Origin: Agapetus fuscipes
Taxonomy: Eukaryota > Arthropoda > Insecta > Trichoptera > Glossosomatidae
Length of the DNA stretch: 64,000 bases
Assembly: GCA_951799405.1 (NCBI GenBank)
Contig: OX637332.1
Span: 30,170,832 to 30,234,831 of the forward strand
Direction: 5' to 3'
Part shown: positions 62,373 through 64,000 of the stretch, one piece after another
Layout of the letters: every line of letters begins with the position of its first letter
Numbering within the stretch: position 1 is the first letter of the stretch
Program-made: the position numbers and the translations under genes
The notes under the pieces: model-generated
Seen by the model: only the letters and a program-made list of their open reading frames with translations
What the model was told of the DNA's origin: nothing
Databases searched by the model: none

Positions 62373-63849
62373 CTAGAGTAGCATGTTTAGAGAAGGAAGG
62401 GAGCTGCACTGACCTGTTGTGTGTGATGAGTGTGGCATGTTTAGAGAAGGGAGGGAGCTGCACTGACCTGTTGTGTGTGATGAGTGTGGCATGTTTAGAG
62501 AAGGAAGGGAGCTGCACTGACCTGTTGTGTGTGATGAGTGTGGCATGTTTGGAGAAGGAAGGGAGCTGCACTGACCTGTTGTGTGTGATGAGTGTGGCAT
62601 GTTTGGAGTAGGAAGGGAGCTGCACTGACCTGTTGTGTGTGATGAGTGTGGCATGTTTGGAGAAGGAAGGGAGCTGCACTGACCTGTTGTGTGTGATGAG
62701 TGTGGCATGTTTAGAGAATGAAGGGAGCTGCACTGACCTGCTGTGTGTGATGAGTTAGACATGTTTAGAGAAGGAAGGGAGCTGCACTGACCTGTTGTGT
62801 GTGATGAGTGTGGCATGTTTAGAGAATGAAGGGAGCTGCACTGACCTGCTGTGTGTGATGAGTTAGACATGTTTAGAGAAGGAAGGGAGCTGCACTGACC
62901 TGTTGTGTGTGATGAGTGTGGCATGTTTAGAGAATGAAGGGAGCTGCACTGACCTGCTGTGTGTGATGAGTTAGACATGTTTAGAGAAGGAAGGGAGCTG
63001 CACTGACCTGTTGTGTGTGATGAGTGTGGCATGTTTAGAGAATGAAGGGAGCTGCACTGACCTGCTGTGTGTGATGAGTTAGACATGTTTAGAGAAGGAA
63101 GGGAGCTGCACTGACCTGTTGTGTGTGATGAGTGTGGCATGTTTAGAGAATGAAGGGAGCTGCACTGACCTGCTGTGTGTGATGAGTTAGACATGTTTAG
63201 AGAAGGAAGGGAGCTGCACTGACCTGTTGTGTGTGATGAGTGTGGCATGTTTAGAGAATGAAGGGAGCTGCACTGACCTGCTGTGTGTGATGAGTTAGAC
63301 ATGTTTAGAGAAGGAAGGGAGCTGCACTGACCTGTTGTGTGTGATGAGTGTGGCATGTTTAGAGAAGGAAGGGAGCTGCACTGACCTGTTGTGTGTGATG
63401 AGTGTGGCATGTTTGGAGTAGGAAGGGAGCTGCACTGACCTGTTGTGTGTGATGAGTGTGGCATGTTTGGAGTAGGAAGGGAGCTGCACTGACCTGTTGT
63501 GTGTGATGAGTGTGGCATGTTTGGAGTAGGAAGGGAGCTGCACTGACCTGTTGTGTGTGATGAGTGTGGCATGTTTGGAGAAGGAAGGGAGCTGCACTGA
63601 CCTGTTGTGTGTGATGAGTGTGGCATGTTTGGAGAAGGAAGGGAGCTGCACTGACCTGTTGTGTGTGATGAGTGTGGCATGTTTGGAGTAGGAAGGGAGC
63701 TGCACTGACCTGTTGTGTGTGATGAGTGTGGCATGTTTAGAGAATGAAGGGAGCTGCACTGACCTGCTGTGTGTGATGAGTTAGACATGTTTAGAGAAGG
63801 AAGGGAGCTGCACTGACCTATTGTGTGTGATGAGTGTGGCATGTAGAGT
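62373..63849 (-). repeat. 27 x 54-bp minisatellite carrying copies of the Rdl exon 6 splice donor
   Basis: On the gene strand each unit reads CACACTCATCACACACAACA, GGTCAGTGCAGCTCCCTTCC, TTCTCTAAACATGC with small changes. The real exon end reads TCTCACCACA, GGTCAGTGCAGCTCCTTC. Unit variants form a higher-order pattern: six successive 108-bp pairs of types A and B in the middle, simple A variants on both sides. The 54-bp length keeps one frame open, making a spurious 538-codon ORF. Confidence 0.95.
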
Positions 63850-63882
63850 AGCATGTTTAGACAATGAAGGAGCTGCACTGAC

Positions 63883-64000
63883 CTGTGGTGAGACTGATCT
63901 CCATGGCTCTCTGCCGGTGCCCCAGCACCTTGAACTGCGGCAGGGACACCTCGTTGGAGACGCCCACCGAGTTCGGCCCCTCGTTCCACTTATAGCGGAT
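63883..64000 (-). CDS. Rdl: Rdl GABA receptor, exon 6 (partial, ligand-binding domain)
   Basis: The exon runs off the window. Visible residues are IRYKWNEGPNSVGVSNEVSL, then PQFKVLGHRQRAMEISLTT and the first base of Gly, followed by donor CACAG|GTCAGT. This is the extracellular part just before M1, containing loop F/C residues near the GABA site. In insects exon 6 exists in two mutually exclusive forms. This one matches the KWNEGPNSVGVS form; the other must lie beyond 64000. The donor has C at position +3, which is weaker than consensus. Confidence 0.96.

Follow-up and report, generated by a model that had tools for sequence, protein, structure and literature searches.

We analysed a stretch of 64,000 nucleotides from the trichopteran Agapetus fuscipes (contig OX637332.1, positions 30,170,832 to 30,234,831; hereafter the window), which contains part of the gamma-aminobutyric acid (GABA) receptor gene Rdl on its minus strand. 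Directly behind exon 6b of this gene lies a minisatellite in which a splice donor is repeated in every unit. All 40 residues of exon 6b are identical to a chain of PDB entry 9she, labelled there as GABA receptor subunit beta, which we take to be RDL, and further RDL segments match in consecutive order along the locus. A Pfam search with the 40-residue exon by itself gave no match, nor did Rfam at the gathering score in 60000-64000. A sister copy, exon 6a, is found outside the window on the upstream side of 6b, with 225 nt between them. The two exons agree in length (138 nt) and phase and share 27 of 40 residues; 6b is the 3'-most copy. An earlier note on this DNA had placed the array at an alternative "exon 6", which stands as to the alternative exon and can be sharpened to 6b, the second of two copies. 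The names 6a and 6b were introduced for exons c and d (PMC2064938; this and the other papers given by PMC number are cited from excerpts), and we infer their assignment to the two copies here. All exon edges are predicted from sequence.

Tandem Repeats Finder (TRF) reports the minisatellite at 62381-63844, with a period of 54, 27.1 copies and 94% matches. By count there are 28 head-to-tail units in 62338-63882: one of 65 bp, 26 of 54 bp and one of 76 bp. Each of the 28 opens with the first 14 intron bases that follow exon 6b, GTCAGTGCAGCTCC, and one extra ACAG/GTCAGT (the slash marks the splice boundary) at 62337 closes the array directly after unit 28. The array starts at the exon's donor and has a donor-like site in each unit, the arrangement reported for the human IFI6 minisatellite taken up below. 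The exact word CAGGTCAGT is present at 27 downstream sites, namely units 3-28 and the terminal site, while unit 2 reads TAG/GTCAGT. Genome-wide, GGTCAGTGCAGCTCC occurs 28 times, always at Rdl (the exon edge and 27 positions downstream); no copy of the 15-mer formed by G and GTCAGTGCAGCTCC was found in the 618-Mb genome outside this locus, and two units taken together as a 108-base query likewise matched the Rdl array only. The variants of units 2-27 are ordered ABCDDCCCEABABABABABABDCDEF, in which units 11-22 form six AB pairs. Units 1 and 28 have a 12-bp stretch in common (with one base different) that is missing from the 26 inner units.

The earlier note had described a donor-bearing minisatellite that begins at the exon/intron junction, with a donor in every unit and a 108-bp higher-order pattern; all of this is borne out, and the AB pairs speak for later expansion. 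Its splice boundary, CACCACA/GGTCAG, was one base off: the reading frame and the GT rule give CACCACAG/GTCAGT. Exon bases are part of the unit for four nucleotides only (ACAG); a longer gapped match to the exon is not significant, since 781 of 5000 shuffles with ACAG left in place did as well. We also reject a coding role of the array: one of its frames is open for 538 codons, but the frame of exon 6b stops in unit 1.

Features of the Rdl junction array (window coordinates) and of junction arrays at other genes (coordinates within the named loci)
Feature	Coordinates	Strand	Basis or description
Rdl exon 6b	63883..64000, on to 64020 in extended coordinates (138 nt total)	-	PDB 9she identity
Exon-edge donor CAG/GTCAGT, presumed working	63877..63885	-	Frame across exons 6b/7 and GT rule
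Unit 1	63818..63882	-	65 bp, divergent; keeps 12-bp stretch; carries in-frame stop
Units 2-27	62414..63817	-	26 x 54 bp, each starting GTCAGTGCAGCTCC
Units 11-22	62684..63331	-	Six 108-bp AB pairs
Unit 28	62338..62413	-	76 bp, with 12-bp stretch
Terminal CAG/GTCAGT	62332..62340	-	Far array edge, then sequence unlike the unit
Intron between exons 6b and 7	59241..63882	-	4,642 nt; array is its first third
Rdl exon 7	58956..59240	-	Transmembrane region, PARVALG
Paired-box (PAX) junction array	L037 3183-3607		PDB E 8.6e-33, Pfam PAX 1.8e-33
SLC6 transporter junction array	L036 3128-3587	-	PDB E 4.2e-07, Pfam SNF 2.1e-09
LRP4-like junction array	L027 2126-3358 (C7)		36-bp unit, 34.2 copies
WDR6/Trm734-like junction array	L028 3297-3482		4.1 identical copies of 45 bp
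L035 junction array	L035 3235-3671		Exon called by open frame alone, VGKINGQDIFQLAG...LNQQQ

Are arrays of this kind confined to Rdl? We scanned the genome for three tandem donor words, CAGGTCAGT (spacing 30-60), CAGGTRAGT (20-50 and 51-81) and CAGGTATGT (25-55), and the results are lower bounds. The first word found four loci, namely Rdl (the source of the word), a paired-box gene, an SLC6 transporter gene and L035, all of which adjoin an exon or an exon-like frame. CAGGTRAGT found five (LRP4-like, WDR6/Trm734-like, C3, C16 and C27), and CAGGTATGT found one, L040, with a 40-bp array of 6.1 copies for which no exon-edge call was made. Among these ten loci, a tally that leaves out the loci of a broad AGGTRAGT search, five arrays lie at exon ends recognised by homology (Rdl, paired-box, SLC6, LRP4-like and WDR6/Trm734-like), one lies at an exon end called by its open frame, one is without a call, and at three (C3, C16 and C27) no exon was seen; C16 has 27 open codons before its first copy. 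The idea that arrays of this kind grow from junctions is strengthened by the four further genes with homology support.

The unit of the LRP4-like array consists of 28 exon-end bases and eight intron bases. Its PDB match has an E-value of 3.3e-40 summed over repeated domains (3.1e-09 for the best single domain), and the alignment spans the first donor. The same is true of the alignment of the WDR6/Trm734-like peptide, whose PDB match is TRM734 (E-value 2.3e-04) and for which we presume the gene name WDR6. The L035 frame has no PDB match; in 3185-3664 of this locus, 160 codons are open from the exon through the array, and later donors would add repeats of 18 residues. These other junction arrays copy about 20 to 43 exon bases as well. 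Scored on the first three to six copies, matches to the last 30 exon bases number 27-29 in LRP, 28 in WDR6, 29 in L035, 22 in SLC6 and 20-24 in PAX.

As a control, we searched for the words in reverse. The reversed word TGACTGGAC gave a single locus, C22, where no exon was recognised, although one phase has 45 open codons ahead of the first copy, some of them within the repeat; the assessment of C22, like that of C3, C16 and C27, was based on sequence and open frames and involved no homology search. The raw matches of the CAGGTCAGT search were 14 for the reversed word and 46 for the donor word. For the remaining words, the reversed searches gave match counts only: 6 + 9 = 15 reversed versus 7 + 21 = 28 donor matches, and 38 + 10 = 48 versus 2 + 22 = 24, in the two CAGGTRAGT searches; 18 (2 + 16) versus 4 (4 + 0) for CAGGTATGT; and 85 (44 + 41) versus 251 (191 + 60) in the broad AGGTRAGT search. 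The AGGTRAGT matches listed are dominated by a 15-bp array, AGGTAAGTCCTGATG, of at least 2.7 kb (C1:28838063-28840763). Since raw matches count repeats inside arrays and not loci, we do not infer an excess of arrays for donor words over other words. What can be said is that many existing donor-word arrays sit at predicted exon ends. As a background, 143 kb contained three arrays with at least 10 copies (period at least 20, length at least 150 bp).

How strong are the copied donors at Rdl? Donor scores were taken from an approximate frequency table, and duplex energies were calculated for pairing with U1. By these scores, 27 sites at least as strong as the exon-6b donor (the exon-edge donor and 26 copies) lie in the 1,545 nt of the array, with none in the 3,096 nt of the remaining 6b-7 intron or in the 4,643 nt from exon 5 to exon 6a. 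The terminal site (62337) falls in the gap between the array range and the range of the remaining intron and is not counted. The exon-6b donor pairs with U1 at -9.1 kcal/mol, compared with -14.0 for the full consensus, because of a C at +3. The core of the array copies is identical to it and their pairing energy is equal, while the donor of 6a is weaker (-7.1 kcal/mol). Separately, the 225-nt intron between 6a and 6b contains an AAG/GTAAGT (L009 around 335; 64103 in extended coordinates) that pairs at -10.6 kcal/mol and outscores the own donors of both exons.

Reading on past exon 6b gives G-QCSSFIV-stop, the early stop after the true donor that had been claimed before, and this stop precedes all 27 sites with exact CAGGTCAGT in the frame of exon 6b. 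The use of exact-word decoys would likewise bring a stop in LRP (16/16), WDR6 (3/3) and PAX (4/4), whereas later donors keep an open frame in 5 of 17 cases in SLC6 and 7 of 7 behind the L035 exon. As decoys bring a stop at four of the five homology-supported loci, the first donor is presumably in use there.

We compared the variability of the copied donors with that of the remaining unit. Eight of 54 columns vary among the 26 equal units and none of these is within the donor. The difference from the rest of the unit is not significant (p-value 0.21 for 9 nt, 0.06 for the 15-nt core), and therefore we make no claim of selection. We also looked for RNA pairing. In docking-selector pairing at mutually exclusive exons, one element pairs with elements beside each exon. 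No convincing pairing partner of the unit was found near exons 6a and 6b, only weak and scattered matches. Intron 5-6a contains a 13-nt stretch complementary to the unit (68639 in extended coordinates); three such complements are scattered over the 143 kb, where 0.24 are expected, and none is on the same strand. Compared with 40 sequences resampled from dinucleotides (not exact shuffles), the duplex energy of the unit with intron 5-6a is below all 40, that with the remaining 6b-7 intron is reached by 2, and those with the two exon 6 copies and the intron separating them are reached by 16-23. As far as sequence goes, the action on isoform choice that the earlier note had proposed is not supported, whether by donor constraint or by pairing near exon 6.

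Several other features of the window are given for completeness. Exon 7 encodes the channel motif PARVALG (about 59090-59106), in which we assume the A-to-S change of resistant insects to lie; the window has Ala where resistant insects have Ser. The A-to-S change is described in PMC2064938. At the far end of the array-bearing intron, some 55 nt before exon 7, is a 62-bp repeat (59297-59436; TRF, 2.3 copies). The word TTCTAAC, which we take to be branch-point-like, is found in the copies of this repeat, with a further occurrence slightly upstream (about 59457). TRF reports two other minisatellites in the window, at 21393-21922 (52 bp x 10.2) and 31061-31839 (74 bp x 10.7).

We think it probable that the Rdl array is a junction-seeded and mostly neutral minisatellite, that the exon-edge donor still works, and that the same route was taken at other genes. 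A tandem duplication beginning at the junction of exon 6b and its intron would have copied the donor together with the first intron bases. The founder may have been a longer segment between two copies of ACAG/GTCAGT (the exon edge and 62337) that was shortened to 54 bp, after which slippage and unequal exchange would have expanded the inner units to a total of 28. The unit structure, the divergent end units and the 108-bp pattern are observed, and from them we infer the order of these events. The two end units share the 12-bp stretch that the inner units have lost, which would fit the ends being the oldest part. The exon-edge donor would continue to function, being the first to be transcribed and the one joined to the real exon; the copies would be mostly silent pseudo-donors, perhaps binding U1 weakly, with a weak effect or none. 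The same mutational route may have operated at other genes of the genome: arrays of the same kind at unrelated genes argue for a general mutational process and not for a device specific to Rdl.

Several points weigh against this explanation. All 27 Rdl copies keep GTCAGT intact, unlike the LRP array, in which position +1 is A instead of G in 17 of 34 units. The intact copies could hint at upkeep, although recent homogenisation would also explain them. The Rdl unit contains just four exon bases, fewer than at the other genes. The LRP exon by itself has no PDB match, and the WDR6-like peptide has no real Pfam match. Finally, that the first donor is the one used is a reading of sequence.

The strongest alternative, which we regard as about evenly balanced between true and false, is that junctions are not special. 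Minisatellites may start anywhere, and arrays of donor words would derive from real donors, which supply many such words. The absence of a visible exon at three of the ten donor-word loci fits this idea, as do reversed-word raw matches that are not consistently fewer and the three arrays of at least 10 copies in 143 kb. However, all four CAGGTCAGT loci adjoin an exon or exon-like frame, and the one locus of the reversed word has no recognised exon.

It is unlikely, in our judgement, that the decoys are used to a noticeable extent, so that the stop in the retained intron leads to destruction of the mRNA and output of the 6b isoform falls with array length. All 27 counted decoys do lie behind the stop, and their core equals the true donor in sequence and pairing energy. 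Moreover, early in vitro work reportedly showed a preference for the intron-proximal donor when two identical ones were offered. If the cost were strong, however, selection would have opposed growth to 28 units, and four further homology-supported genes carry such arrays.

Somewhat more doubtful is an effect of the array on the choice between 6a and 6b, in which its U1 sites might help 6b to be recognised or might draw U1 away from this exon. The array lies directly behind an alternative exon, U1-binding pseudo-donors control splicing of the Drosophila P element (PMC7776569), and an intronic variable number tandem repeat (VNTR) shifts TERT splicing (PMC11830802). A regulatory role would thus be favoured by position and precedent only. 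Against it, the same kind of array is found in genes with no such exon pair seen (none was sought), the donor core is not significantly constrained, and no convincing pairing partner lies near 6a and 6b. It is tempting to go further and imagine junctions as hot spots of minisatellite birth and the arrays, with up to 34 donor-region copies, as heritable rheostats, whose length would set protein amount or isoform (e.g., of RDL) through U1 decoys while the first-transcribed donor mostly wins; we consider this improbable. Although an assembly may mis-size a nearly identical array of 1.5 kb, an artefact is very hard to reconcile with divergent units in fixed order, a single copy across a 32-Mb contig, and junction arrays at other loci.

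The human IFI6 (6-16) minisatellite, in a gene induced by interferon, is said to start at an exon's donor, with donor-like units of about 12 bp, some of which are used. The Rdl unit differs in its length of 54 bp, in its insect host and in its position behind an alternative exon, and it is known here from sequence alone. The presence of multiple splice donors in the human minisatellite is already in print (Turri, Cuin and Porter 1995, cited in PMC4526556, PMC3618361 and PMC2572611), and by its structure the Rdl array belongs to this type. In the third intron of the P element, one of the pseudo-5' splice sites binds U1 without being spliced (PMC7776569). Rdl resembles it in having donor-like sites near the true donor, but the P element has two sites upstream of the intron that act with PSI and hrp48, whereas Rdl has 27 units inside the intron. 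VNTR6-1 in TERT intron 6, with a 38-bp unit and 24 to 66.5 repeats, is linked to isoform ratio (PMC11830802). It is an intronic minisatellite of similar size, but in these excerpts it is tied to a G-quadruplex and not to donors. Intron gain through tandem genomic duplication of AGGT (PMC3443670) likewise copies an AG/GT segment in tandem within a gene; there, exon copies make a new intron, while at Rdl an existing junction has been copied into the intron. Among the open-licence papers that our search listed (most subscription papers being outside its scope), we saw none that describes an array of this kind in Rdl, nor any on the recurrence of junction arrays in several genes of one genome.

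The choice of one donor out of several is a long-standing problem, mostly approached with small sets of engineered sites. Here, one genome offers natural series of about 4 to 34 junction repeats at genes that can be recognised, and in most of them the end of the exon has been copied too; a comparison of these arrays would separate the roles of transcription order, exon context and distance to the acceptor in donor choice. Since RDL carries a known insecticide-resistance site (PMC2064938), a length-variable donor array in its gene would qualify as a possible source of differences in expression.
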